Assembly: GCA_003024785.1 (NCBI GenBank)
Contig: PUQB01000428.1
Span: 62,001 to 126,000, forward strand
DNA from: Selaginella tamariscina
Lineage: Eukaryota > Streptophyta > Lycopodiopsida > Selaginellales > Selaginellaceae
Direction: 5' to 3'
DNA length: 64,000 nucleotides
Shown here piece after piece: positions 11,134 through 45,887 of this stretch (position 1 is its first letter; every line of letters begins with the position of its first letter). The position numbers and the translations under genes were made by a program. Under the pieces are notes generated by a model. The model was not told the DNA's origin. It did not search any database and saw nothing but the letters and a program-made list of their open reading frames with translations.

Positions 11134-12477
11134 ACTGGCTTTACATATTTTATTATACTGATGTATTTTTAATCGAACTCTTATATAATTTTCATTTGTC
11201 TTCTTGTTATAAACTCTCTCTTTCTCTCTCTCTCTCACACACACACACACGTGTGTGTGTGTGTGTGTTTTATAAGATAATGCAAATTCTGGCCTATTAT
11301 GTTAGTAACCTCTTGATGTTATCTAAGATAGTAATCTTAACTTAAAGATCTGGTGACGCAGACGGTTTTATATATCAGAATTGTATTATAGAAAATATCC
11401 TATAGAATTTTTTATTTCTATTTTCTAAACTACAAGACTTTAATTTTTATGATCATAATAATAGTATAAATATAATAATATCAACAAGCTTAATTGAGAC
11501 GGAAGTGCCAACGTGTCTGTGTGTGCATGCATATTAGTCCTTATATTTTATGTATGTGAAATGTTGAATGTATTAACCATATTATAATTACTAAAAATTT
11601 GTAATGTTATAAAAAATCATCTCATTTATTTAAAGATAGAGCTGATTCTCTTCCTTGCAAGAAATGAAAATATATAATAAAGAATTATAATTTTCTAAGT
11701 TTAAACATGATTATATGTTATATATATGAATATGATTGTATAAACACGCAAATGTTATTTGCTTTACAGATTAAACTTTATCATTTAACTTTTTAATTAA
11801 CTTGCGAATGTATAATAACTATCAACGTCATTGTTATTTAATCCAGGTGTAAAATTGTTAATCTTTCACACACAGAATCAACTCACACGCACATACACGT
11901 GTGCGTGTGTGTAGACTCACCCAGTATATATCAATATTCATAACTTTATCTTTTTGCCATATATAATCTCTCTCGCTCTCTCGTATATATACAAACACAC
12001 ATGAAGATAACCTTTGTGTATTATATTGAATAATAGAAATTGTAGTTACCAAAATGAATGATTTTAGTGCTTGTACTTTTCCATGGGTTTTTATGATTTA
12101 ATTTTATAAATCAAATCAGAAAATCTTTATATTAACCACAGACAGCCGACGTGACCTTCCACGTTTTTAAATTGAACCAACCTTTTCTGTGTTTTATTAA
12201 TAATTAATAATAGGAATAATGTTAAAATCTAAATGAAACATCAATTTTTGTAATAATTTATATACACATTAATACTGTACATTAAGATAATCTTGTTTTA
12301 AATTGCTTTTTACTACAAACTCTAGATCAATGTTTCGTTGTTTGCCATATAGTAATGCTTATACTATATATACATACAGATACAAAATACCGACGGAATA
12401 TCCTCAGGTAAATTCAACAGTATATACGGTATATGACTACCTAATTAGGTCTTCATTTTCTAGGGTTCTTGGCGAGA
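11134..12477. other. intergenic DNA with microsatellites
   Basis: It holds a (TC)n(AC)n/(GT)n tract at 11215-11270 and AT-rich spacer; no gene is visible. Just before the KIN17 start (12460-12477) is TCTAGGGTTCTT, a telo-box-like promoter or leader element. Confidence 0.5.
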
Positions 12478-13946
12478 ATGGGGAAGCACGAATTCATGAC
12501 GCCGAAGGCGATTGCGAATCGGATCAAGGCCAAGGGCCTGCAGAAGCTGCGTTGGTACTGCCAGATGTGCGAGAAGCAATGCCGTGACGAGAATGGATTC
12601 AAGTGCCATTGTATGAGCGAGGGCCACCAGAGGCAGATGCAGATCTTCGGCATGAGCCCTGGTAAGTTCATCGGCTCCTTTTCCAATGATTTTGAGACTG
12701 CTTTCATGGAGCATATGCGCCGTAGCCACCGATCCAGCCGTGTTGCTGCCACTGTCGTCTACAATGAGTACATTCAGGTAACTACATTGATTTGTCGATC
12801 ACATTTGAATAATGACTTGTTGAAATATTACATCATGGATTTATATATATATATATTATGGATTTCTACTAAACTAATTATATTTTGTTACAGGATCGAC
12901 ATCACGTACACATGAACGCATCGAGGTGGGCAACACTCACAGATTTCGTGAAGTATCTCGGACGAACAGGGAAATGCAAAGTCGAGGAAACTCCAAAAGG
13001 CTGGTTCATGACATACATCGATCGTGAACCTGAGACACTTCTCAAAGAGGGCCAGAAGCGAAAACGTGTAAAAGCTGAAGGTTAGTTTCTTATATCTGTG
13101 TATGCATTCGAGGTGTTATGTGTGTGTATCGATGCACACCATGTTTGTTTCTGCAGCTGCTGAAGAGATCCGACACGAGAAAGAGATTGAATCGATGATT
13201 GAACGTGCTAAATCAACAAAGGTTGATGATGAATCCGGACCGTCACTCAAGGCTAAGGAAGAATCAGCGGAGCAAGTGAAGTTGGGGCATGAACCAGTGA
13301 GAAAGTCGCATTTTCTCTAGGTGGTTTCTCTAAACTTAAACCACCTACGGTTTTTGCTAAACACGACGAGGTGGAGGCTTCAAAACCTGTTAAAGAGGAC
13401 ATAAGGTGAAAAGGCCAAATCTGATAAGGGTAAAGGTTTAGCTGCCCTTGAGGCTTATGAAGGAGCAAGAGCTTGTGAAGGAGAAGAAGAACAGGAAGGA
13501 CTACTGGCTTGGTGAGGGCTGATTGTTAAGGTTTTGGGAAAGAAGCTGATTACTACAAGGAGAAGGGCGTGGTTAAGAAGGTATGTATTAAGTTCACACA
13601 TACACATGTGCACATCATTTTGTTTATGTTTTATATGGATATCATGTCTTACTATCTTTACACTTTCAGGTGATTAACAAGTATGTGGGGAGATCCAGAT
13701 GCTAGAAAGTGGGCATATTCTGAAGGTTGATCAAGCAGAGCTGGAGACAGTAATCCCACAGATAGGCGGGCTTGTAAGGATAGTTAACGGGGCATATCGG
13801 GATTCTCTGGCGAACTGTTGGGGATTGACGAGAAAAGATACTCAGCTAAAGTACAGATAGAGAAAGGTATATATGACGGGAGAGTGGTACCTTCTATTGC
13901 GTATGAAGACATAGCAGTAGCAGGGCGTATCTCTTCTACCAGCTAA
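12478..13946 (+). CDS. KIN17: KIN17-like DNA/RNA-binding zinc-finger protein, 3' half frameshifted
   Basis: KIN17 is a conserved eukaryotic nuclear protein linked to replication, repair and RNA processing. Exons: 12478-12777, 12894-13080, 13157-13580, 13670-13946. The start at 12478 gives the family N-terminus MGKHEF followed by TPKAIANRIKAKGLQKLRWY. The zinc finger uses C28, C31, H44 and H50; the winged-helix-like region follows, with ETAFMEHMRRSHRSSRV and WATLTDFVKYLGRTGK, then an acidic/basic coiled region from AEEIRHEKEIE. Exons 1, 2 and the first half of exon 3 are open. From about 13307 the reading needs at least six base restorations (near 13307, 13408, 13458, 13520, 13544, 13690 and 13813) to give the family C-terminus, in which NRKDYWL, ETVIPQIGGLVRIVNGAYR and KVQIEKGIYDGRVV can be recognised. 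This could be a pseudogene or a poorly polished stretch. As written, the frame stops at 13320 after about 217 residues. Confidence 0.85.
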
Positions 13947-16405: not shown

Positions 16406-16974
16406 TCGTTTCTATACTCTTATACTTGTTTATAAGAAAATTATATAAACAAGACTTATTTTAAATTTTATTTTAGGATATTTTGAAATTATAAATGTAC
16501 ATGGTTTAAATATTTAAATCTCATGTTAAAGTATGTTTTATATTTTTTAGTCTTGCATATGCTTTGGACGATAGAAACGAAAAGAGGACTTCACTATTTA
16601 TGCTTACAGCATTTGTCTTGTATTTAACTATTGCCAAGTAATTATATCTATTTATCTATCTATCTATATATAATATATATATATATGCAAGTTTGTAAAT
16701 ATCAAACCTGTATTATATAAATATATTTTATTATTGATATTAATATTACATTCAATACATTTTAAATACATTTTTTAACCGGGTATATTTATTAAATGCA
16801 TTAAATATTTCAGTTTAGGCAATTTGGTTTTCTATTAGAGCCAAATTGGTGATATTTAAGCAGTAAACTCTTATCCAGTGTGTTGCAAAGATTTCTTCAC
16901 AAAATAATATTATAATAATTAATAATTAATAACTAATTAAGTGATTGTATAAATATGGGAAGTGACTCAAAAGG
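16406..16974. other. AT-rich spacer left of the transposon
   Basis: No gene; a short (TATC)n/(AT)n tract lies near 16650-16685. Confidence 0.5.
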
Positions 16975-16984
16975 GGTCTCGGCA

Positions 16985-17118
16985 AAGAGGAGACTCCGGC
17001 TCAGGAGGCTTCAATTATTCTAGTATATTCGCGGATTTCTAGGGTTATTCTAGCATATTCTAGAATATTAAGTTTTTTTAATATGCCGACTGGCTTAATA
17101 TATGCCGACTGGCTTAAT
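16985..17118. repeat. left terminal and subterminal repeats of the transposon
   Basis: After the GGAGACTCC...CAGGAGGCTT end come three TTATTCTAG/ATATTCTAGAATATT motifs and a perfect direct repeat of ATGCCGACTGGCTTAATA (about 17081-17099 and 17101-17118). A TCCCTAAACCCTAAACC stretch follows at 17126-17143. These are plausible transposase-binding sites. Confidence 0.55.
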
Positions 17119-17167
17119 AAAAATTATCCCTAAACCCTAAACCATTTATCCTTGCAGCACCGGTGGG

Positions 17168-20100
17168 TCATGAACTTTGTTGCAATTCACCAGTAAACGG
17201 TGGACTCCTCTCACTGAGCGATCGCCTTTGTAGAAAATATGTGACATCCGGGTTCACGGCTATAGACGAAGTACATGTGTACACATGGGCTCCAACTTTT
17301 GCTTTCTGAAATGTAGAACAACTGCATGAAGGATAAGTATTAATAGTCACCTTTGCAGAGTCATTTCCTGCCGACACAACGAAAGCCTCCTTCCGTCCTC
17401 TAACTGTCACTTCAACATTTCGCACACAACCTAAAAACGTGCGGAATTCTTTCTTGTTCCTTAGACATTTTTGTTGGAGTCCGGACCATACGTCCTCGAA
17501 AGGTGGAATTGTTGTAGATCCAGCTCCACGTGGTGGCGATGGTGTTTGTCCTTCTAACCCTCATCTACTCTTCCTGCATCCCCTGTAAACCTTCCAGAAC
17601 AAAGCCTGCATCCTGTAGTTCTCTGACCTCCTCACTTGTCAGCTTCGTTTCCTTGAGCACAGGCCAAACCGTTGGTGGTGTTGGAATTCGTGACCGAAGA
17701 ATTTTGCCGTTTGGCCGCGTGAAACACCCTGAATCTTTTGGGCAGAACCACATCATCTGTTGTACATACTCCTCATTCCCCAAGGCATCAATGTACATTC
17801 GTTTTCCATAGAATCCTGGTGCTGGCACTCTGCTTGGATAACCGATTGGTTTTCCACACAGAGCAGTTCCTTCCTGATTCATCCCCAAACACTTAACCTT
17901 ACTGGATGCTCCGATGGCCCACTCTGTTTGAGCAATCTCTCTCTCCGAAACCTCTTCGAACCTTAACCTCTTTCTCCTGTTGTTTTGGACCACCCGCTCT
18001 GTGTACTCTACATCATGTCTGTGTGAACGTCGAGCATCAGACTGTTCTGTTCCTGTGACTGTTCTCCTAACAGTTTGCACTCGAACGTTAGTGGTACTCG
18101 TGAACTCCGGGCTGGTCAAGTGTTCCTCGCCTTCCACCAGATTGATAATTGTTGATGGAGATACACTTTTCCCCTCAGAGAGTTTGCGTTGCACTCGTTT
18201 CAACAGAGTTTCCTTCGAAGGCCCTGACCCTGTATACCTCCCTTCTATTGCCGCTTTCACCTTCGCACTCTGCATAACTGCATCGGTGAGGTCTAACATT
18301 GTCGCCTCCAGCAGTGGTACTCTTTTGGCCAATCTTGCTCTTCTTGCTCTCGCGTGAATCACTTCAGCATTGTTTGTAGTTGGAACGCTCGCGAGTCCTT
18401 CTTCTGTCATGTCTCCCAGTTCCGCCATGGAGATGTGGTCCTCATGCCTGATCCACCAAGACAGCCATGTCTTCAAAGCTCGAATGTTTGACGCTCGTCC
18501 TTCCCAAAAAGACTCGAGAATTGCCAGTTGTTCTTTCTTAGATTGTTCATTCAGTGCTGCAGGCCAGGCACGAGCAAGCTTCATGTGTTCTTCGCGATGT
18601 TCTTCTGCGATCCATTTCTTTGTCACCTGACGCACGGATTGCATAAAGTGAAACAGACAGCTTCTTTCCCTCCCTTTCATCTTTGCTCCGTTGTTGAATA
18701 CTTGGCGCAAGGCTATCCATATCGCTCCAGCCTCATCCGACATGAAACCAGCAAAGTTGACATTCTCCAAACCCTGCTTCTTACAAACCTCTAGCATTGT
18801 GTTCAAGAACTTCAGCACTGCAACATTATCTTCGCGGCACATATCTGCGTAAGCTATAGTCACCATGGATCTGACACTGCAAGAGAGCGTTAGATAACGA
18901 AGATTAGAAAGTGTTATGAAGAGTTTTACAACTTACAATGGGTCATAAAGGTGTATTCCAATTGTCGCCCAGTCTGGTATGCGGTGCGTGTGGTCCAGAA
19001 CAACCCATTGATCATGAAGGTCTCCTCCACTTTGACACCTTCTGATGTACTCAACTCCTGAACCCGGTCCCTCAACTGTCATTTTGAAGATCAGAGGCTG
19101 CTCCTCAGCACCATGCAGTTCCATCCCTGGAACATGTATGACGTGAATGAAAGGTATTGGCAGCTTTGTCTTCAGCTCCAGAAGACCCTCGTAACCCTCT
19201 CTAAAGTGTGTCTCCTTCTGTCTTGATTGTGTAATCCAGTCCCGAGTCCTAAAGAAAAGGTCACGTCAGTGTGTAGAGATCTAAAGAAAAATACCTTCGA
19301 TGGTTTGTTAGAGGTTCAAGTTTTGAGAGTAAACCAGTGTACGAGACTTCTCCTTCTTCCTTGAAAAGTTCTTCAAAGATGAGCTCACGCGCGGCTTGAA
19401 ACTCAATCACTCGTTGATTGGTTCGCGGACTGCTCTTTACCACGTTGCTGACACTAGATCTGGCTCGCTGAACGTTTGAAGCTGACACTGAGGGGCTGAC
19501 TGGATGCTGATGAACACCTCTGTGAATGAACAACCTTGTAAAAGAAATGTCGTCTGGCAGAATGTAGTACACATAAGCCGGACAAGTGTGCACCAGCAAT
19601 GGCTCCTCTCCACAATGCTTACATTTCATGCCTATTACTTTGCCTGTCTCAGTTGTCTTTGCCTTCTCCACAGCACCCTTGAAGTGACATTCATTTGCTT
19701 TCTTCTCAAAAGCCAAGTAGGGGCAGGTAGGATTGATGCATTTGAGATGTCCGACACATGAACTTCGACTGACTCGCGCCGGAACATGCCAGTGTGTTGT
19801 GCTCGGGTGTGTCCAATGGTAGCAGCCATCCTTGCGATTCATCCCCGAGTACTTCTCTGTGCTTTCTGTCTTAGGGGGAAGTTCGTAAATGACATTTCCA
19901 TTGTATATCTGCGGTAGTTCAGAGACTCGTTTAACTTCAGACGAACCAATGAGATCCTTCCCTATCCTACATTTGTCTGCTCTTAGAAGACACACCAGCA
20001 TGGATTCCTCACGCTCCTCTGTCCGCAACCTGAACAACGGGCCCTTTGCCGGGCACAATGTGTAAAAGACAAACTGGTTTGATGCATTGCCTTCTGGTAA

Positions 20101-20262
20101 CAACTCCACATCTTCTCCAGAACTCGCAGAAACTGACATCAATTGAACCACATGTATACTGAACCAACAAGGAATGTTGAAAGCAATGTGAAGACAAACA
20201 GCATTTCCATCTTCATCGACTGGGAAATCTTTGTCAATGCCTTCATAGGTAACTCTGGCCAT
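17168..20262 (-). CDS. MULE-type transposase with GCM-like zinc domain and SWIM-like tail
   Basis: Exons 20262-19295, 19248-18937 and 18876 downward have matching phases; introns are 46 and 60 bases. Residues about 145-255 resemble the zinc-binding GCM DNA-binding domain: SCVGHLKC, NPTCP, CKHCGEEPLL, a later Cys, and RGVHQHP (candidate ligands C169, C175, C180, C192, C214, C217, C227, H251, H253). GCM/WRKY-type zinc domains are known in MULE transposases. The catalytic part follows: D408 in VVLDHTH, D474 in FMSDEAGA, the MULE C-x2-H pair (C500, H503 in CLFHF) and E598 in TTNNAEVIHARAR. After a basic region, a C-terminal YPSCSCSTFQ with later H and C looks like a degenerate SWIM zinc finger. 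The frame breaks near 17558-17575; two single-base losses would join the 433-codon stretch to the tail, whose frame then runs on to the stop at 17168. About 1,000 residues in total. Confidence 0.8.
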
Positions 20263-20754
20263 GACAACGCAAGGAGAAAGCTCGGTGGTTTAGGAAAGCA
20301 AAGCAAAAGATTAAACACACTTTCCTTACCAAAAAAAAATTACAATCGTTAACAATAAACGTGAATACACGTTTGTATATAATTAATTCTATGCTGCCCA
20401 GTCACAGTGTTCTTAATGATGTCCTCTCTAGTATCACCGATTTAATTTAATTTCTACCTTTTATGATTTGAAATATCTTCACATTTACCAATTATTCACA
20501 TATTTTAAAATAAACCCTAAATATTAATGTCACATTTATTCCGTAGGGTTCACTGTTTTCATTGCGGCTAGGGTTTTTTGGTAGATAGGGTTTACTGTTT
20601 CCATTGCGGCTAGGGTTCTTTCAATCTCAGATCTGTTTCCACTGCGGCAGATCCAGAGGGTTTCTTCAATCTCAGATCTCAGAGTTACGGTTTCCACTGC
20701 GGCGCCATCCATTTCGACTCGATTCGTGCAGCGCCCAAGTATAACAATGGAGAT
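20263..20754. promoter_or_regulatory. shared promoter region of the divergent transposon genes
   Basis: A perfect 18-base palindrome, AAACGTGAATACACGTTT (20357-20374), abuts TATATAATTAA (20376-20386), a likely TATA box for the minus-strand transposase about 115 bases upstream of its start. To the right, four copies of GTTTYCAYTGCGGC (near 20550, 20590, 20634 and 20688) alternate with TAGGGTT and CAATCTCAGATCT. The palindrome next to a TATA box would suit an operator. Confidence 0.55.
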
Positions 20755-21788
20755 TTCTGTGCCGATTTAGATTCTCGGCACCATCCTGCTCAGCCGGCGG
20801 CCACAAGGTATGTGTAATTTCTGTATTTTATGATTTGCGCTCAAAGTATTTCTTTTTCCAGAGATATAGGGTCTTCTTATTTGTGCCGACTGAGAGCAAC
20901 GGCACCATCCTGGTTCAGTCGGCAAACACAAGGTATCGTCGATTTATTTATTTTTTTCCTTGCGGCTCAAGTATACGTGTCACAATGTTTTTTTTCAGAG
21001 TTAATGGGTCTTTCCATTTGTGCCGACTGAGAGTGACGGCACCATCCTGGTTCAGTCGGCAAAAACAAGGTATTTTCGATTTGTTTTTTTTTGCTTTCTG
21101 GCTCAAGTATTCGTATCACAAGGTTTTTTTTTCAGAGTTAATGGGTCTTCCCATTTGTGCCGACTGAGAGTGACGGCACCATCCTAGTTCAGTCGGCAGC
21201 CACAAGGTATGTTCGATATATTTATTTTTTGCTTTCTGGATCATGTATTCGTATCACATTGTTTTTTTTCAGAGTTAATGTGTCTTCTCATTTGTGCCGA
21301 CTGAGAGTGACGGCACCATCCTTCTTCAGTCGGCAGCCACAAGGTATTTTGAATTTGTTTATATTTTGCTTTGCGGCTCAAGTATCCGTATAACAATGTT
21401 TTTTTTCAGAGTTATAGTGTCTTCCCATTTGTGCCGACTGAGAGTGACGGCACCATCCTTCTTCAGTCGGCAGCCACAAGGTATTTTGAATTAGTTTTTT
21501 TTTTCTTTGCGTCTCAAGTATTTCTTTTAAAACAGTTAATGGGTCTTCCCATTTGTGCCGTCTGAGAGGGACGGCACCATCCTATCTCAGTCGGCACCAT
21601 TATCTCTTCAGTGCCGTCTGACAGAGTCGGCACAAACTATCTCAGTCGGCAGGTTTTTTCTTCTACATCTCTCTGCCGACTGAGAGGGTCGGCAGCATCT
21701 AGCTTGAGTCGGCAGCCACAAGGTTAGTCATCTTTGTTTGTTTTTTTTTTTGACTCCTCATCAATTGACTTGTGTGTTTACTTTCCAG
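20755..21788 (+). repeat. 137-base-period array of exon-like hairpin units (5' leader of the methyltransferase-like gene)
   Basis: Five units start at 20862, 20999, 21136, 21273 and 21410, exactly 137 bases apart. Each has a 71-base block preceded by a T-rich tract ending CAG and followed by CAAG/GTAT, that is, an exon-like block between 66-base intron-like spacers. A partial unit (to 20807) and a compound one (21536-21722, followed by a GTTAGT...TTTCCAG intron to 21788) flank them. Each block contains GTGCCGACTGA...CGGCACC and TTCAGTCGGC, so two mutually exclusive hairpins can form. Some blocks carry a nine-codon upstream ORF (ATG GGT CTT..., ending at GAC TGA). It is a tandemly amplified leader exon, or a binding array, or both. 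Confidence 0.75.
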
Positions 21789-21798
21789 AGTTTACAAA

Positions 21799-24700
21799 AT
21801 GGTGAGAGCTTCAAAACGTCTACTAGAGACTGCGCCTGATGAAGAGCCACGGGAAGAGAAGAGGATATCGAAGCAGAAGCGAGGCAAGAGAGGAGAACCA
21901 TCTAATGTACAAAGGAGGATCCTCCAGTGACTCAGTCTGGAGTAGTAGCAGTTGAGCAAGAACAGCCTCCACCAACAATCACAGATTTCCCGGAGAGCTC
22001 GTCGCAGTTGCCTCCTTCATCCGCTGAGGTTGCAGTCCTGAACGAGCAAGTGCAGATGACAGAGGCAGCTGAAGCTAGCGAGGACGACTTGGAGGAGGCA
22101 GTCAGCAAAAAGAGAGGCCGCGGGAAAGCTGATTCAAAAGGCAAGAAGGCGAAGAGCGATAAGGAGCCGAAGGAGTTATACAGCATACCGGCGAGCCTGC
22201 ATTTGGAGAGCTCAGCAAACCTGCTCGACAAAATTACTATCAAGGGACTTGGTGATCCTCCTGATGTGCCCATCTGCAGAATACATTCCAACGAGGTGGT
22301 TCGACGAGTGAACCCAGGGGACTTGGACAGGCTGGTGTCATCGTTGAAGAAGGCTGGTTATCTACGCAACACGGCCTTGTTCATTCTGTCCATCGGAGAT
22401 CGACTCACTGCTGAGGAGCTATCGGAGCTGTCGAAGGACACGATTCAGTACGAGCAGCACCGGTCTTTCGAGCAAGCTCTTACTCAGCCGGAGTACAAAC
22501 AGTGGGCTTCAAGGCTCTCAAACAGGAAGTTTAGCTGCTGGGACGATGGCCAGGCTGCAGGCCTGCCGGTAAGAGGCACCGAGAGGATGCAGAGGACAAC
22601 CAGCGATGGGCTATTCGCGTTCGATCGAGTTTCATCTCCACGGAGAACCTCGACATTCTTCAACTGGTTTCGATGTTCCAATCGATTAACATGTGAGTAT
22701 TTTCTTTTCTTTTTGTTAAGAGTTTAGACTTACAGTTTCGTTGAACAGATCTTCAGCAACATCTGTGGAAACAACGCTACCACATATTCTCCTCGCTGTA
22801 AAGGCGGTCTGCACTAGTACAGAAGGAACTCAGAAAATCCTCGAGTCACTCACGGAGGTTGATCGTCTTGAGGTGCGGAAGTGGAAGGAGAGTTCATCAG
22901 GAAAGACGGCTTGGCATCCTCTTCCGAACCTGATCTGCGCAAAGATACTTTTCAAGGTAACCTCCGATTTAATTTATAGGAAAGAAATTTTTAACTTGTT
23001 CTATGTGCAGAACGAGATCGACGATGATCTCGACAGAGCAGTCACCAGTGCTAAGGGCAATCCACAGGTTGAGGTGAACCTGAAGCAGCTATGTACAAGA
23101 AGCATGACAAGCGTATGCACAAGTTCCTCTCCATCATAGACCCAGACTTGGGGGAGGAGTGGTTCCAGAAGGTGACAAACATCTCTCATAAGCAGTGTCG
23201 CTGGATGGGCATTGAGAAGCTGTATGCGATGTCAAGGGCGAAGATTCCAAACATGCTGCGACTCCGATACCTGAACAAGCTCACCCGTCTCGAATCCAAG
23301 GCAGAACAACAGACACTTGGGCTACCGGGCATGCAGGACAAAGAGTGGATCAAGTGGTTCACCTTGGACTTATATTGGAAGGCTGTGCGCGAGGAAGCCA
23401 TTCAGATCCTTAAGGGGTTGCGAGAGGATGGTGAAGAAGTTGGAACGGATGTCGACTTCATGAGCTGGTTTGACGAGATGAGAATTCGGAGCAAGTGCCT
23501 GGTCTTTCAGCCCTTCCATGACTGCATACGGTTCACTTATTCGATGGAGCCGAATGAGTTTCTGGAGCGTGAGGAATCTGCGCGTCGGATGATATGGAGG
23601 TAAGCTTTCAATCCAGCATTGCTACTGTCTGACTTTGTGTTGCAGGTTCATACTGGCGAAGCAAATGACACCGTCCCATACGATGAAGCTGTGGACAGAT
23701 CATACAAGCGAGCCTCACATGTGGTCGAAGAGCAGAGGAGCTCTAACACCGTTCGAACGGGAGCATGTTCCATTCTGGCTCGACTGTCCGTCGCAACAGC
23801 CACCAGCTTGGGAGAGCACACTATTCGACATGCACGCCAATGATCTACCAGCGATTGTTTGGGAGCCAGAAGAAGTAGAGGCTATCAAGAAGAGCAAGAT
23901 GAAGAAGACGGTGCGGAAGACAACTACACCTGCAAAGGGATCGGGAGCGGGACCAAGCTCTTCTACAGCACCTCCGCCGGCATTCGACTTTACAATCAAT
24001 GAGGTACAGCCACTTGTAGCTAGTTTGGACATCAAGGACGACCTGATGACCTTCATCCCGACCCTGGCTGCATCCCGTGGATCCTACGACCTAGCTGTGT
24101 GCGACATGGAGGAGATGAGCAGGTCTTTCTTCGAGCCAGGTGCTTCCCAGACAGAGGTGTACACCAAGCTCCGAGAACAGGTTGACAGACTACATACGGT
24201 TGAGTCACAAACGTTGTTCCAGGAAGTGGTAGGTGAATACGGCTTCAACCTCATCATCCTCGACTTGCCCAATGAGCTTGTATATGGAGGTGCTAGCATC
24301 AACAAGGACATTGTGCAGCTAGATCCGGTGAAGTTTGAGGAGGCCTTGCAGTTCAGTGGAATGCACTTGGCAGCGAGTGGTTTCATGGTCGTCTTCGCGA
24401 GTTCTCCTTCTGTTTCGGCGGTGATTCAGGCGGCTGCAGTAATCAACTTGGAGGTTGCAGGGACTTACAGCGTCTACCGTGCACGAGGCTGGGGATACCG
24501 TGACAAAATTAAGGTAAGCTAGCTATTCAAGTTCAAGTTTAACTTGGTCTATGTGGCAGGATAACTTGTTAGTTCTCTTGGTGCTGCAAAGCTCTGAGAA
24601 GAAGTCGAAGAGGCCAAACCCTCTGGCGTTGACGAACACGATCCTCGTCGACACTGCCGACCGTTATCAGGAGGCTTGGTAAGGAAGTGCTTTGCTATGT

Positions 24701-25022
24701 TTATCCTAATGGAAGATTGTGCAGGATTATGATTCAACCGAAGAGTGTTCGACTCATGCAGCTTTTGATCGAGCGTCTCAGTAGACCTGGCGACCTAGTC
24801 TGGGATATTGGTTCCGGAACCGGGTCATCATTGTTAGCTGCCGTCGAGCTCGGAAGGAATATTATAGGAACCGAGAAGAGTTTCGAACTCTCTAGGTTGG
24901 CAACAAACAAGCTTGCAGAGAACATTAGACCAGAAGAGTTACCTACTCAAACACCTCCACGTCCAAGCGTAACTGGTGGTTCGAGAACTGCAGCTTTACT
25001 TAAGATGAAGAAGAAACTTTAG
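21799..25022 (+). CDS. ParB-like plus N4/N6 amino-methyltransferase-like protein of the transposon
   Basis: Exons: 21799-22692, 22749-22956, 23011-23599, 23646-24513, 24560-24678, 24725-25022; the last three introns are each 46 bases. After a Lys/Arg-rich start comes an acidic low-complexity part, then a region like the ParB/Srx fold: VPICRIHSNEVVRRV, DLDRLVSSLKKAG and a later HREDA. The C-terminal half has beta-class methyltransferase order. First is a motif IV-like strand (GFNLIILDLPN, where DPPY would be expected), then, in the final exon, the SAM-binding part: PKSVRLMQLLIERLSRPGD followed by LVWDIGSGTGSSLLAAVELG and NIIGTEKSFELSRLA. The family methylates the amino group of adenine or cytosine in DNA; the substrate cannot be told. 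ParB-methyltransferase fusions are familiar from phages and bacteria, but introns rule out contamination. Single-base losses near 21913, 22567 and 23090 break the frame. Spliced length about 1,000 residues. Confidence 0.7.
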
Positions 25023-25210
25023 CTAATGTATATTGAGTAATAAATTAAGCTAATATAAAAAAAAATTAAAAAAAAACAACAGTTTTAATAGAATTCTTTT
25101 TTGCCGACTGAGGCCAATACTGCCGACCAGAAAGAATATTCCAAAATATTCTAGAATATTCTTGAATATTCGAGCCCAGGCCTCCTGGGCCCCAAGCCTC
25201 CAAATGGCGG
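25023..25210. repeat. right terminal and subterminal repeats of the transposon
   Basis: After the stop codon and an A-rich stretch come TTGCCGACTGAGG and CTGCCGACCAG (25101-25130), then ATATTCTAGAATATTCTTG and the inverted terminal motif AGGCCTCCTGGGCC with CCAAGCCTCC. Order and motifs mirror the left end. Confidence 0.55.
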
Positions 25211-25807
25211 CACTCGTTTAATATTAGTCTATTTAAGGTGGGGAAAAAAATTAGATAACACACATAATTAAACCCCAATTGCTACCTTAGAGAAAAGTGT
25301 ATTAACTTTACATTTTAAAAGTGTTGGCTTGTGTTTGCATTAGGATCCGTAGATAATATTTAGATAAAAACATAATGCATATGCATGCAATGCATGGGGT
25401 ATGTTCTTTTCATTTGGGACTTGTCATATGAGCATGTGGGGTACTGGGAGATTGTGACACTACACAGTCTTCCTAAACTTTTGTCATCATAAAATAAATG
25501 AAATACATGCTTTACTAGTTTGTGCTTGACTAGCTCGCCATTCATTAAATTACCACATGTAACATTCTTGCTAGCCTTGTCAAAGACTTTTCACTTGCTT
25601 TTAATTTACTTACCATTTATCATTATAGGGACATCTTTAAAAAGGGGCATTGATACTAGTGAATATCTTGCAATTATATCATTCTTTGAAGGTTCAGTCC
25701 CACTATGTTGTTTAGCAAAAGTAAGATGGCCCTTTAAACATTATAAGAATGTATTCACAAGGTCTAAGCGAGTGGTCTTAATAATGTTCACTTTCTTGTC
25801 ACCCACC
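25211..25807. other. spacer between transposon and gypsy-1, with CCACC target duplication
   Basis: No gene is recognised. 25803-25807 (CCACC) is the left copy of the gypsy-1 target duplication. The sequence continues on the far side at 31621, so 25.25-25.8 and 31.6 kb onward were contiguous before insertion. Confidence 0.6.
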
Positions 25808-26260: not shown

Positions 26261-26285
26261 ACACCTCTTCCCTAAGGACAAGTTC
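26261..26285 (-). other. gypsy-1 polypurine tract
   Basis: The minus strand reads AGGGAAGAGGTG directly before the 3' LTR, the position and composition expected of the plus-strand primer. Confidence 0.6.
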
Positions 26286-26712
26286 CACGAGTCTTGGGAC
26301 CTGGTTTAGCAGGATAACACCGATGGAAAGCAGCAATTTTGGAAGAAGTATGGAGTAAGTTGGATGCAGGTTCCCAAGTGCGATCGGCAGGCAAATAACC
26401 TTTCCAATCCACCAAGTATTGAAGTTGGCGGCGATGAAGACGAGAATCAAGGATGGCTGCAACTTCATACTCAAGTTCACCGTCAATGACCACAGGAGGG
26501 GGAGGAGAAGAAGCACGACCAAGAAGAGAAGAAGGATGATACGGCTCCAACAAAGAAGTGTAAAACACAGGATGAAGTTTCACCGTAGATGGTAACTCGA
26601 GTCGAAAAGCTACAGGATTGACCTTAGCCGCAATCCTGTAAGGGCCCAATCGTTGAAAATCCAACTTAGAAGAAGGCCTGTTGGTGCGAATATGCCAACG
26701 AAGAAGCCACAC
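26272..26712 (-). pseudogene. gypsy-1 integrase C-terminus and chromodomain
   Basis: The segment LDFQRLGPYRIAAKV is the integrase C-terminal domain, followed by VKLHPVFYTSLL and the chromodomain EYEVAAILDSR, LQYLVDWKGY and RTWEPASNL. Chromodomains of this type direct integration to heterochromatin. Confidence 0.85.
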
Positions 26713-26742
26713 GAGATCACCAATCTTGTATGTAGGTGCCGG

Positions 26743-27739
26743 TTAACGATGAGCATCAGCATAATGCTTGTACCATTCCTGTGCCTGCTGAAGATGAATC
26801 CGGAGATCCTCATGTACCTGACGAAGATGCTGGAGACGATCCTGTACTGCAGGAGCAGAAGAAGGAGAAGTAGAAGGAGCAAAGTCAAAACGTGGATGGT
26901 AGCCTGTAAGAGCAAAGAAAGGTGTCTGGCCTGTAGATGCGTGAACAGAGTTGTTGTAGGCAAACTCTGCCATTGGAAGAAGGTCCAACCAGTTGTCCTG
27001 TTGGTAACTGATGAAGCAGCGAAGATATTGCTCCAAGGTCTGAATCGTGCATTCTGACTGCCCATCAGTTTGTGGATGGTATCTTGAAGAATGGTCCGCT
27101 TTAACCTGTAGACTCCGGAGAAGTTCTCGCCAAAACTTGGACATGAATTGTGGGCCTCGATCAGAAATAATGCTCTTAGGAAGACCATGATGTCGGAATA
27201 CTTTGCGAATCACCAACTCAGCAATTGTTTGGCCTGTAGTAGTCTTGTGACATGGTAGGAAATGAGCTTGTTTGGTGAAACGGTCAACCACGACAAGAAC
27301 TACATCAAATCCACAAGAAGGAGGAAGATCTGTGAGGAAATCTATATAAATGGATCTCCAAGGAGCAGAAGGAACAGGAAGAGGACGAAGAAGACCAGAG
27401 GGCGCGTGATGAGCATCTTCGACCTATTGCAGGTGTCACAACTCCGTACAAACTTGTCCACAAAACCCACAACCCAGGCCACCAATAGTTGCAAGTCACC
27501 AACTCAACTGTCTTGGCCACACCAAAATGTCCTGTAGTCGGGGTATCATGACAATCCTGTACCACACGAGTCCTGCAAACACCAACAGGAATATATAGGA
27601 GACCTTCCCGATATAGGAGTCCGTCCTGTATGGTAAACAAATTATAGTCTGTATGGGAACTGGAAGAAGAGGAACTTGCGATGTCAGGACTAATGTGTAA
27701 AAACACATTCCTTGCCAAGTCGTCTGTAGCCAACTGCAA
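26743..27739 (-). pseudogene. gypsy-1 integrase (zinc domain and catalytic core)
   Basis: The HHCC zinc domain is visible as DCHDTPTTGHFG and, in another frame, SCDTCNRSK. The core follows with VDRFTKQAHF, IISDRGPQF and QTDGQSE, giving the DDE residues, and then AEFAYNNSVHASTG. Frameshifts near 27410-27430 and 27290 separate the parts. Confidence 0.85.
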
Positions 27740-27805
27740 ACGGATGTCTTGTAGAAGTGTGGAATCTGCTGGAGCCTGATGAACTTGTAGTGCTGCAAGC
27801 CGAAG

Positions 27806-28369
27806 TCAATCAGGACCCAACAACACTTGCTTTTGACAGTCATATGCAGGATCGCCCGGGGTCGGTGCAAGGTAAAAGCGCTTAGACAATGCATTCGCCT
27901 TGCCATTTCGAAAACCAGGCCTGTAAATGATGACGAAATCAAAATGTGATAAAAACTCCGCCCACCTAGCCTGTCGCCGACTGAGAACTCGAGCCGTTTG
28001 AAAATACTCCAGGTTCTTGTGATCCGTAAGAACTTGTACAGGATGTGCAGCACCTTCCAGGAAATGCCGCCGCCACTCGAACGAATCCACAATGGCCTTG
28101 AGTTCCTTGTCATGAATCTCGTAATTGATTTTTGCCGAAAGGAACTTACGAGAGTGAAAAGCTACAGGATGAAGCAACTTATCTTTTCCAACTTGTGATA
28201 GAACAGATCCTACTATAAAATCCAAGGCATCTTCTTCAACGAAGAAGGGACGAGAAGGATCAGGATGTGCTAAAATCGGAGCTATCGTGAAGATGTTCTT
28301 GAGTGTTGTGAATGCATGTTCTGCCTTGTCAAACCAAGAGAACACTCTTGTGCGCTTGGTGAGTTCCAT
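27806..28369 (-). pseudogene. gypsy-1 RNase H domain
   Basis: Contains the RT-linked RNase H features PFFVEEDALDF, the YEIHDKELKAIVD segment and VLTDHKNLEYF, then the HxFDFVI-type tail before the integrase linker. It removes RNA from the RNA:DNA hybrid during replication. Confidence 0.75.
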
Positions 28370-28396
28370 GAGTGGAAGTACACGCTTGGAGAAGTC

Positions 28397-29282
28397 CTAT
28401 ATGAAATGCCTGTAGAAGTTTGCAAAGCCAAGGAAACATTGTACATCTCGTACAGACTTGGGCCTTTCCCACTCCGCGATAGTCTTCACCTTGTGCATGT
28501 CCATGGAAACACCAGCAGGTGAGACGATGTAGCCCAAGAACTCTACAGTATCCCTGTCGAAGAAACACTTTTCCAACTTCGCATACAGGCCATGCTCGCG
28601 AAGCCTCTGTAAGACTAGTCGTACATGCTTGTCATGAGCCGCCTGGTCCTTGGAGAAAATCAAAATGTCATCGAGGTAGATTACCACAAACTGGTCCAAG
28701 AAGTCATGAAAGATGTCATTTACCATGTGTTGGAACACGGCTGGGGCATTGGTAAGTCCGAAAGGCATCACCGTATACTCAAAGTGTACCTTGTACGAAA
28801 GGCAGTCTTCCACTTATCGCCTGGACGAATCCGTACAAGATTGTAAGCCCCTCGTAAGTCAATCTTCGTGAACACTTTTACTCCTTGTAGCCGATTGAGA
28901 AGTTCCGGGATCAATGGCAACGGGTATCGGTTCCGAATGGTGACTTGATTCAAACCTTTGTAGTCCACAACTAAATGTAAACTCCATCTTTCTTCTTGAC
29001 AAAGAAGATAGGTGCTCCTGCAGGGGACTTTTAGTGACGGATGAAGCCGGATGCCAAGTTTTTCTCGATGTACTGACGAAGAACCTTCAATTCTGTAGGT
29101 GACAGTGCATAAATCGGTCCGAACGGTGGAGTCTTTCCTTCCACAAGATCGATAGGACAGTCGTAGGACCTGTGAACAGGAAGAACTGCAGCCTTATGCT
29201 TGTCAAAACGTTCTGAAAGGAGTGATACTTTGATGGCAAGGAAGGAGGAGAAGAAGGAACAGAGAAGGAGGTTGAAAAACAA
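28397..29282 (-). pseudogene. gypsy-1 reverse transcriptase
   Basis: The N-terminal part ([26 protein letters not shown]), the middle ([16 protein letters not shown]) and the catalytic part ([12 protein letters not shown] and [10 protein letters not shown] with the YLDD box) occupy three successive frames. The following [11 protein letters not shown] block leads into RNase H. All palm motifs are retained. Confidence 0.85.
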
Positions 29283-29677
29283 GGGAATCAGATACAGGAA
29301 AGGTAGAAGAGGACGTAGGAGTTACTTGAAAGGCAAAAAGATGAAAAGGAGCAGGATCAGTGGCAAGTTCATGCATGGTAGTGGTAAGAACTCGAAGAGG
29401 AGAAGGAGGGAGCTGTGATTGAAAAAGAGGAAGGATCTTGGGAGGTGGAACAGAAGAAAGTAATGAAAAGAGGCAGGATTGGGAGAAACATGTGTGGATG
29501 TTGACAAGTGTACAGGATTGGAAGAATCCTGTACAAAAGTCCGTGGATGCACAGGAGTGAGGAGAACTTGTGAGTGTGCTGACAAACCAATAGGAGGTGG
29601 ATCCTGTCGAGGAGGAGTCTTCAACACTGATACAGGAACAGGCATGGTCAATCCTATAGCTTGTACTGCCTTAGACA

Positions 29678-30328
29678 CTAAGGATGTATTCTGCACACAG
29701 GAAGTACAGGATTGGTCCTGGTTGCCGTAGAGGAAAACATGAACGTCCTAGACCTCCAGTTGATCTGAGGATTTGCAACAACGAACCATGGCATGCCCAA
29801 AATGATGGGAGTCGACTGAGTCTTAATCAAGTTGAAGGAAATTGAACAGTTGAATGCGCCATGACTGCAAGAGAGAGGTTTGGTAGCATGGGTAACTGCG
29901 CCAGAAGCAATCAGACGACCATCGGCCACCTCTACAGGAACTGCACGCTTCAACTTCACCATCGGAATGCCATGTTGAGTTGCAAAAGTGTCATCCATGA
30001 AGCATGCATTTGCACCAGTGTCTAACAGGGCAAACTCCTTGAGCTTTCGATTATTGAGATGAATGTATATAGGAAACTTGAGTGAGGAATGGTATGAGCA
30101 GCACCAATGGAGCTTGCACCTACGTCCAACTTCGTGGCTCCTAAACGAAGTGAACATTGAAGTTTTCCGACTGAACTTCAGCTTCAACTTCACGCGTCTT
30201 GAACTTCCTGGCTTTAATAGGACATTCCGCCGCCTTGTGTCCTGCTTCACCACAATACAAACATAGATTCTCACTGCGGCGACGTTGCTTCTCAGCAGCA
30301 GAAAGTGGGCCACGCTTGTATTTCTCAA
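29678..30328 (-). pseudogene. gypsy-1 aspartic protease region
   Basis: The retropepsin active site is seen as FALLDTGANACFMD, followed about 70 residues later by the family's PIILGMPW flap/helix block. It overlaps the gag zinc-knuckle frame, so the gag-pol join is disrupted. Confidence 0.75.
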
Positions 30329-31115
30329 CCTCCATAGGAACTACTCCAGAAGGTGTCAAGAAGTATGTACCACAGCTGCAAGATTGGTTTGCAGGAACTG
30401 CTGACGGGATTTTTCCTGACGACGCTCGAACAAGCGGTTGTCGCAGCGAACAACTTGTTCCATGATCTCTGCTAATGTTTGGGCATCTGGTAATGAAGGA
30501 GAAGGTCCTTCACATCATCCCTCAACCCAAAACGGAAGTGTTCAATCAATGCAGTCTCGTCCCATGGAATGTTTGTGCAAAGTTGCTGAAATTCGGATGC
30601 ATAAACGGAAGCTGGTCGAGATCCTTGTGTGAGCTTTCGTAACTTCGTGCATGCGGAACGGTACTTATCAGGATCTCCAAAGCAAGCTTCAAAGGCAACC
30701 ACGAAACCTTCAAAGTCTTCCATCAATGGGTCGTCACGTTCCAGCAAAGGGGCAACCCAAGCCCGTGGAGATCCAACTAGTAGGGATGCCAAAAGGCCAA
30801 CCTTTTGTGCATCAGTTGAGTAGCGGCGTGGTTGCATGCGGATCAAAAGCCTAATTTAATTTAGGAACCCTTGGAAATTGGCACGATTGCCATTGAACTT
30901 TTTGGTATGCTAATCTTCGGCTCCGAAGAAGTGTTCGATGTAGAGGAAATCACGGATGCTTAAGAGAGAGCCTGTGCAACAGCCTTGGAGGATGCATCAG
31001 CAGCTGCATGCGCCGCGGTGGTGGAACCTTGCAGATCTATGACCACTTGGCGCAAAGTGGCTAGCTCATGAAGCAATATTTGGTGCTCGCGTTAAAATTG
31101 CTCAAAATCGGCCAT
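30141..31115 (-). pseudogene. gypsy-1 gag with zinc knuckle (frameshifted)
   Basis: The likely start codon is at 31115-31113 (MADFEQF), and the eighth codon is already a stop. The capsid region lies at about 30846-30472, with the hallmark FEACFGDPDKYRSACTKLR and ASVYASEFQQL. The nucleocapsid CCHC knuckle CLYCGEAGHKAAEC is in a different frame at about 30260. It encodes the particle protein of the retrotransposon and is not intact. Confidence 0.8.
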
Positions 31116-44054: not shown

Positions 44055-44885
44055 TCAGATCTCTGTAGTCCACCACGAGCTGGAGACTTCCATCCTTCTT
44101 GGAAACAAAGAATATTTGGGGCACCAAGCCGGTGATCGTGAGTGACGGATAAATCCGGTGACAAGATTCTCCTCAATGTATTTCCTCAATGTCTCCAACT
44201 CTGTTGGTGAGAGACCGTAAATGGGACCGGAGGACGGCTGCTTACCCTCAACGAGATCGATAGGACAGTCGTACTCACGGTGCGGTGGCAAGGCAGAAGC
44301 TTTCTTTTTGTCGAAGACGTCTGCGAAATCGGCATACTGCTTTGGTAAGGCAGGAGGAACAGAAACATCCTTAGCAGAGCAGGGATAGACTTTGATCGCG
44401 AACACGGATGCTGGGTCATGTCGGCTATCTTTCTTGAACTGCTTCAAGGTGATATGCGAGACTTGAAGTGGAGGAGGAACTGGAACAGGATCGGAATCAA
44501 AGAGTGTGGCTGGAGTTGAAACAGCTGGGAAACTGTTCATGAAACGTTCTCTCCAACCAGGATCCACCAACTCGATCCACGGCAAACCAAGGATAATCGT
44601 AGAGTCTGGAATAGAAACAACACTGAAGGAGATGTTGCACACAGCACCGCAAGCAACGACCTCAACGAACTCCGTGTCATTTATTACCGCTCCAGATTTG
44701 ATATCTCGTCCATCAACGACCCGTACAGAACCAGGAGTCTTCAAAGGATGTAGACGGATCCCGTGTTTGACAGCAAAATTCTTGTCGATGAAATTTGCGT
44801 TCGCTCCGCTATCCACCAAAGCTTTACCAGAGAACTCCACCTCTGGTGTCTTCAGCTGCACCGGAACATGGAACGGCTTGCACAC
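44055..44885 (-). pseudogene. gypsy-3 protease and RT N-terminus
   Basis: An open stretch of 276 codons. The protease site reads ALVDSGANANFID (DSG in place of DTG, both seen in retropepsins), with TIILGLPWIE as the flap block. It continues without a break into the RT leader [20 protein letters not shown], so PR and RT are one polyprotein here. Confidence 0.85.
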
Positions 44886-44899
44886 CTTCGTGGATGGAA

Positions 44900-45887
44900 T
44901 GGATCCAAGATGAGGAAGGGAAGATGTTATGAGTGAAGAGCCTTGAGGAACATGAGTTGTTCCACGGCAATCCAGCCGGACGGCTCCTATTCGGGCTGGA
45001 TCTTCTCGTTTCCCGGCAGCACAGCAAGGGCCACTTCACGAGCTTGTTTTGGACGTCGATGACAATTCTCCAACTTGTGGTACGGGTCCCCACAGTACAA
45101 ACAAAGCTTGTACTGAATCCGCTTCTGACGTTCGGTTGGCAAAAGCTTGCCTCGGCGTGATCGCCCTAATTCCATCGGGGATGGTTCTACTGAGGAAGAT
45201 GATGAATCAGCAGATGAGGGAACAGGGACTGCAGAAATGGAAGAAGACGGCACCAAGAAGAAAGAAGGATGCCGACGTTCTTGTTTCCGCTCGATCAACC
45301 GGTTGTCACAACGAATTGCCAACTCGATCATGCTGGTGAGGGTTTCCGGAACCGCAAAATTCAGCAACATGTCTTTGACCTCGTCCTGCAACCCCGACCG
45401 GAAAACCTCCTTGAGAGCACGATCTCCCCATGTGACATCACAAGCAAGAAGTTGAAACTTCGATGCGTACTCTGCTACCGACATACCCCCTTGGTGAAGC
45501 TGACGGAGTTTGGTGATGGCAGCACTCTCACGATCCACGTCACTGAACATCGCCGTGAACCGTTCCACAAACTCGTCAAAATTCCCAAGGATCGGATCAT
45601 TGTTCTCCAGCAAGGCTGAGAACCATGAAAGAGCAGAACCAGAAAGCAGCGACCCGATCAATCCAACCTTAATGGGTTCTGTGCTGTAGCGCCTCGGCTG
45701 CATCACGATCCACAACAACTTGATTGAGAAAACCTCGGAACTTCGATCGGGTACCATCGAACTTTTCGGGCATGCTGATCTTCCTCTGGAGAATTCGCAC
45801 GCTGTCGGAGCTGATCATTCTCCAGGTGTAGTTGTTTAGCTGCTGCTGGAGGGCAGCAACTTGCTCATGAAGAGCATGCTCGGACAT
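44900..45887 (-). pseudogene. gypsy-3 gag with zinc knuckle
   Basis: The probable start is at 45887 (MSEHALHEQVAALQQQLNNY). The capsid part (FTAMFSDVDRESAAITKLR, MSVAEYASKFQLL) and a CCHC-like knuckle (CLYCGDPYHKLENC) lie in the 45757-44987 frame. A frameshift near 45700 separates the first 60 residues. Confidence 0.8.

Follow-up and report, generated by a model that had tools for sequence, protein, structure and literature searches.

Does a transposon that carries a methyltransferase-like gene beside its transposase use it to mark its own DNA, or to keep the host from silencing it? The question is raised by a stretch of 64,000 nucleotides of Selaginella tamariscina (contig PUQB01000428.1 of assembly GCA_003024785.1, positions 62,001 to 126,000; 'the window' below means the whole of this stretch). 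Here a first-pass annotation, made from the sequence alone, had placed a Mutator-like element (MULE) at 16980..25210, containing a transposase gene and, divergent from it, a ParB-methyltransferase-like gene, referred to below as the passenger. The element is best explained as a recently multiplied, autonomous Mutator-like transposon with many near-identical copies. With a little less than even confidence, we read the passenger as the transposon's own epigenetic accessory protein, which would be a self-targeting, possibly non-catalytic anti-silencing factor resembling VANC of Arabidopsis.

A multicopy mobile unit

Searching the host assembly (300.7 Mb in 1391 contigs) with 2 kb taken from the transposase gene (18000-20000) gave 892 candidates and located this fragment in at least 40 places, the window counted, at 96-100% identity. 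Twenty copies were fetched first, with their flanks, followed by three more divergent ones, one of which (L121) is partial. Both genes are present in 19 of the first 20, on other contigs and between the same ends. The remaining copy, L107, matches the transposase region (17192-20461), its passenger gene being unmatched and its right end not found. The view of two divergent multi-exon genes, transposase on the minus and passenger on the plus strand, within the same mobile unit is borne out, the genes not having been found apart in other copies save for this transposase without a passenger.

Comparison with these copies moved the limits of the element outwards by 5-6 bp at each end, while upholding the idea of a single discrete unit. 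Blastn matches to the 20 other copies end at 16973/16974 in 14 cases and at 25215/25216 also in 14, and the whole transposon spans 16974..25215 (8242 bp, no strand assigned), with edges common to other copies and target-site duplications (TSDs) in other copies. G+C content per kb is 41-51% in this block against 28-35% alongside. The ends, GGGTCTCGGC... and ...GGC[GA][GA]CACTC, are imperfect inverted repeats common to the copies, in agreement with the first-pass annotation. The left terminal region (16974..17026, plus strand) starts with GGGTCTCGGC and the right (25162..25215, minus strand) terminates in CACTC, the inner limit of each being approximate. Alignment of the terminal repeats alone is weak, scoring 49 against a mean of 30.8 (standard deviation 5.8, highest 52) in 300 shuffles. 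Both ends also contain 10-bp tandem repeats around AATATTCTAGAATATT, at 17016-17069 and 25133-25171.

TSDs of 8-9 bp (for example tctgaacag, tcacctgca, ccaaccttg and gtttaatat), scored with one base of slack, flank 14 of the 19 sequences, the window and 18 fetched copies, for which left and right ends could both be read, a readable end being wanting in 5 of the 24 sequences. The left end of L109 was placed by hand at its repeat, and without this copy the count is 13 of 18. For comparison, when left and right flanks were paired across different copies 1 of 421 pairs matched, this sole case joining the window's right flank to a copy on contig C942 that shares the flank. TSDs are lacking in L100, L103, L104, L115 and the window copy. 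The right flank of the latter is 99.75% identical to C942 over 4 kb, and the left flanks differ (loci window 16974, L114 and L122). Since the C942 copy, with its perfect 9-bp TSD, shares the right flank only, the window's left junction at 16974 arose either by recombination or by a misjoin of the assembly across the repeat.

Both genes are frameshifted in the window copy, and the positions of the interruptions vary among copies. The notion of an old and decayed copy was dropped, since the interruptions differ among near-identical copies and resemble assembly indels or recent losses.

The transposase

The transposase gene (minus strand) has three exons, separated by introns of 46 and 60 nt. Exon 1 (19295..20262) encodes a Cys/His N-terminal finger and exon 2 (18937..19248) the first Asp (VVLDH). 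Exon 3 (17146..18876), whose end was set by eye from intact copies, contributes the second Asp, C-x2-H, the presumed Glu and a SWIM tail, and is broken in the window copy by a stop at 17565. A single relative came up in the databases, P0001 (696 amino acids, from a short contig); it is 31% identical (E 3e-64), and pairwise alignment with it preserves the N-terminal Cys/His pattern, the Asp in VVLDH, the Asp in FMSDEA and C-x2-H. P0001 stops short of the region of the Glu (TTNNAEVIH), which is placed by pattern alone; the SWIM zinc finger, CSC-x11-CVH, which lies towards the C terminus, was recognised by pattern in L105, L111 and L115. An AlphaFold model of P0001 with the window exons was too poor to use (mean predicted local distance difference test score, pLDDT, 39.6).

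The protein matches no Pfam family at E values up to 5, so the placement as a MULE, which agrees with the first-pass annotation, is made by the 8-9 bp TSDs, the terminal inverted repeats and the transposase motifs, and holds at superfamily level. Of the GCM finger named earlier, the Cys/His pattern is retained, being shared with P0001, and the label rests on that pattern. The Muta1 MULE of Aedes likewise has 8-9 bp TSDs and terminal inverted repeats, together with a DDE transposase, as the one here may be; it differs in that the portion of its description available to us mentions no methyltransferase passenger (PMC5225508), and the transposase here in that it lacks a Pfam match. In L120 and L121 about 0.9 kb (19940-20857) is unmatched where the transposase gene begins, and the leader of L120 is also much longer.

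The methyltransferase-like passenger

The passenger has six coding exons on the plus strand (21799..22692, 22749..22956, 23011..23599, 23646..24513, 24560..24678 and 24725..25022) with introns of 46-56 nt. Three frameshifts interrupt the window copy, exons 1 and 3 being affected, and at these places other copies show different ones or none; in L111 the gene is open, encoding 992 amino acids with a single stop at the end. The methyltransferase relationship suspected earlier is substantiated, one of the two families invoked for the gene being matched: the last exon meets the Pfam profile N6_N4_Mtase at motif I (24792..24830, plus strand; DLVWDIGSGTGSS) with an E value of 8.9e-10 and 39.3 bits, the gathering cut-off being 26.7. 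No other Pfam family matches the read-through protein. PHROGs agrees (1.3e-10), and weak agreement comes from NCBIfam (5e-05, below the cut-off) and from methyltransferases in the PDB (MboIIA, 0.0005).

A profile of 53 phage ParB-methyltransferase open reading frames (ORFs) from IMG/VR aligns about 140 residues in the C-terminal part of the passenger, up to motif I. These phage ORFs have a ParB part followed by a permuted N6_N4 methyltransferase, an order resembled by the passenger with its putative ParB-like segment, and differ in being mostly 400-550 amino acids long, without its long middle region. The permuted motif order was correctly foreseen, the motif IV position (24262..24273, plus strand) preceding motif I. 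At that position the protein reads DLPN instead of [DNS]PP[YFW] in 21 of the 23 fetched copies (L119, L120 and 19 of the first 20) as well as in the window copy; L107 and the partial L121 lack the stretch. For comparison, [DNS]PP[YFW] is present in 57 of 60 phage ParB-methyltransferase ORFs. Because DLPN occupies the position in all readable copies, we term the passenger methyltransferase-like and not an active member of the family.

The ParB-like segment (22266..22639, plus strand) was recognised at motif level. It contains CWDGNHRLQAL in intact copies, which carry FSCWDGNHRLQALQKL with a DGNHR motif that we take to resemble the ParB GxHR motif. KRHRE at about 22567, once considered as the motif of this segment, was replaced, the intact copies reading DGNHR. 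A matrix derived from the phage ORFs finds its best window in the 992-residue passenger at CWDGNHRLQALQKL, but 126 of 2000 shuffled proteins score equally. The AlphaFold model of the ParB-like piece was too poor to use (mean pLDDT 40.6).

A motif array in the leader

Exact copies of the 9-bp motif TGCCGACTG number 16 over the 64-kb window. All of them fall within the element, the left end having two, the right end one and the interval between the genes thirteen. The motif is absent from the coding exons of the window copy and concentrated in the three non-coding parts. The matching subterminal motifs reported at both ends were recovered as the pair TGCCGAC-N12-TGCCGAC, with a 19-bp spacing, at 17084..17109 and 25102..25127 (both plus strand). 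The pair is found exactly at 17084, 25102 and, in the leader on the minus strand, 21626, as against a mean of 0.00 in 100 shuffles.

Between the two start codons lies a non-coding stretch (20263..21798, no strand assigned) that includes the passenger leader and holds a tandem array of 5.5 copies of a 137-bp unit (20853..21596, plus strand). The units match splice-like junctions and resemble a predicted 71-nt exon followed by a 66-nt intron. The predicted 71-nt exon contains an inverted pair of TGCCGACTG, and one unit, when folded, gave a z value of -2.8. The distance from start to start ranges from 1117 to 2710 bp in the 19 of 20 copies measured, and inspection by eye suggests that most of the variation comes in units of about 137 bp; L106, with 2710 bp, has 27 motif copies in this interval as against 1542 bp and 13 copies in the window. 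A short upstream reading frame (MGLPICAD) was seen by eye in several of the predicted leader exons (20999-21480), ending at the TGA of TGCCGACTGA.

A probable silencing footprint and signs of selection

Substitutions were analysed in 21 of the 24 sequences after alignment, L106, L107 and L121 being left out. Of 335 singleton substitutions, C>T and G>A account for 235 and the reverse direction for 34, with a per-site C>T decay of 0.150 at CG, 0.139 at CHG and 0.037 at CHH; L119, L120 and L104 contribute 236 of the 335. Cytosine methylation at CG and CHG, as in plants, is expected to leave such a C-to-T footprint, and the decay at these sites suggests host cytosine methylation. From this CG/CHG weighting it follows that the element probably meets host silencing.

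Selection on the passenger was assessed by comparing amino-acid changes relative to L111 with 2000 simulations of matched substitution spectrum, for seven out of the 20 aligned sequences besides L111; these were chosen after the change counts had been seen, and the figures are uncorrected for multiple tests. Signs of purifying selection appear in three of the seven: L104 has 61 changes where 76.0 were expected (a count as low arose in 5 of 2000 simulations), L120 has 15 where 21.7 were expected (8 of 2000) and L102 has 14 where 21.0 were expected (7 of 2000). In a comparison of ten of the sequences with L111, in-frame passenger stops occur in L119 (8), L112 (2) and L109 (1). Given fewer amino-acid changes than simulated, the passenger, its altered motif IV included, was probably at work while the family spread.

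Anti-silencing factor, active enzyme or transposition helper?

According to the anti-silencing reading, the passenger, uniting a ParB-like part with an S-adenosylmethionine (SAM)-binding methyltransferase fold, would recognise the TGCCGACTG arrays in its own leader and at the ends of the element. This recognition would prevent silencing of the element, perhaps through occupancy rather than methylation, in the way that VANC acts for VANDAL21, and the fixed DLPN favours such binding without catalysis. Expression of the passenger, its binding and its anti-silencing effect are what we infer. The earlier suggestion of a self-modification or anti-silencing partner is thereby narrowed: marking with N4-methylcytosine or N6-methyladenine is weakened by DLPN, while anti-silencing or self-recognition remains the best reading. 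A fuller history is more doubtful. In it, a MULE would have captured a bacterial-type ParB-methyltransferase which, its catalytic motif lost, now serves as a sequence-specific, SAM-binding anti-silencing factor co-evolving with a tandem exon-intron array of its 9-bp target, and VANC-like function would have arisen a second time, from an unrelated protein.

VANDALs are Mutator-type elements. As far as the published account available to us goes, VANC21, encoded by VANDAL21 of Arabidopsis, has as its binding site a 9-bp motif located in tandem repeats of non-coding DNA, and it lowers methylation (PMC5735166). Both systems have a second gene beside the transposase, and in both the non-coding parts are dense with a 9-bp motif, borne by tandem repeats that differ from copy to copy. 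VANC differs in having DUF1985 and DUF287 and, in that account, no methyltransferase; neither DUF was matched in the passenger by Pfam, and the comparison concerns the manner of working only.

DNA-modifying cargo is known elsewhere, as TET/JBP in KDZ transposons and a Dam-like methyltransferase in DIRS elements, these being other enzyme families and element classes than those found here; the TET/JBP analogy had also been drawn in the first-pass annotation. The Ectocarpus transposon Sola1-1_Ec32 is described, in the part of the paper available, as having an accessory gene with ParB-like and N4C/N6A methyltransferase parts, proposed to bind and modify its own transposon, and green and red algal transposons with such genes are cited there (PMC12477816). 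As here, the accessory gene is on the opposite strand to the transposase, and its product is of similar size, with 1104 amino acids as against 992. By that description the carrier differs, being a 21.5-kb Sola1 element of a brown alga, and the likeness is drawn from the published description. In view of these cases the type of cargo was already known, from algae, and a Mutator-type carrier with it is a new variant. No Mutator element with a ParB-methyltransferase cargo was found in the literature, as covered by titles and abstracts with subscription papers mostly outside. The first-pass remark that no standard plant MULE has this cargo may hold, although the cargo itself is not without published precedent.

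Several observations weigh against the anti-silencing reading. The ParB-like region keeps its DGNHR motif but finds no profile match to ParB in Pfam, NCBIfam, PHROGs or the PDB; hhalign gave ParB a probability of 0.5%, and the expected place gets a poor score from a matrix of ParB's first half, which favours another. No homolog of the passenger was found among the 7993 (full length) and 7994 (C-terminal part) best-sharing candidates scored. A scan of viral_contigs with the C-terminal 427 residues yielded 41 pattern matches, none of them a relative. Motifs of VANC21 are, in the account cited above, all in one orientation whereas the array here has inverted pairs, and the pairs near either end run in the same direction instead of being inverted. 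The selection signal is weak in L119 (90 changes as against 100.6 expected, 62 of 2000 simulations as low), and in L108, L103 and the window changes are not fewer than simulated (304, 773 and 953 of 2000). Finally, motif I is kept and motif IV half kept, and the protein may yet be an enzyme that has diverged without loss of activity.

This last possibility, an active if divergent N4C or N6A methyltransferase marking the element's own DNA, we consider unlikely. The canonical motif I and permuted order would suit it, as would the Asp and second Pro kept in motif IV and the purifying selection seen in three copies, and an equivalent proposal has been published for Sola1-1_Ec32, as described in part of that paper (PMC12477816). 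It must contend with DLPN in every readable copy, at a position where nearly all the phage ORFs have the canonical motif. We hold it about equally unlikely that the passenger is a transposition helper that binds the arrays or ends during excision, integration or targeting and leaves silencing unaffected. Second genes of Mutator elements can act in this way, maize MURB being an example, and identically spaced (19-bp) motif pairs do lie near both ends; their direct orientation speaks against such a role, as does the position of most motif copies in the leader, distant from the ends. Less probable again is that the array is a host-regulated promoter or leader for stress induction, the passenger being perhaps unrelated to the motif. 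GCCGAC, which forms the core of DREB/CBF sites in plants, is indeed contained in TGCCGACTG, and the array lies between divergent genes, but the motif is also found beyond the 3' ends of both. That two unrelated genes became adjacent by chance or in assembly, as the missing TSD and suspect left junction of the window copy might hint, is rejected as next to impossible on the strength of the copies in other contigs, 19 of 20 with both genes between the same ends and TSDs in 14 of 19 sequences.

Surroundings of the element

At 12445-12915 the window has an exon that belongs to a KIN17-like gene (C2H2-zf_KIN17, 1.2e-20, and WH_KIN17, 1.2e-10, in Pfam). Remains of Ty3/gypsy-type retrotransposons are found at 26272-30340 and 44055-45814, with rve at 26746-27423 and Retrotrans_gag and Ty3_capsid at 44990-45814.

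Implications

Transposons with a counter-silencing gene of their own are known in few cases. The present element brings the ParB-methyltransferase cargo, described before in Sola1, into a Mutator-type carrier whose host genome shows CG/CHG decay like that of plants. It is young and multicopy; the passenger is open in at least one copy, its catalytic motif is altered and fixed, and TGCCGACTG offers a clear candidate target, a combination that makes the choice between marking and binding directly testable.

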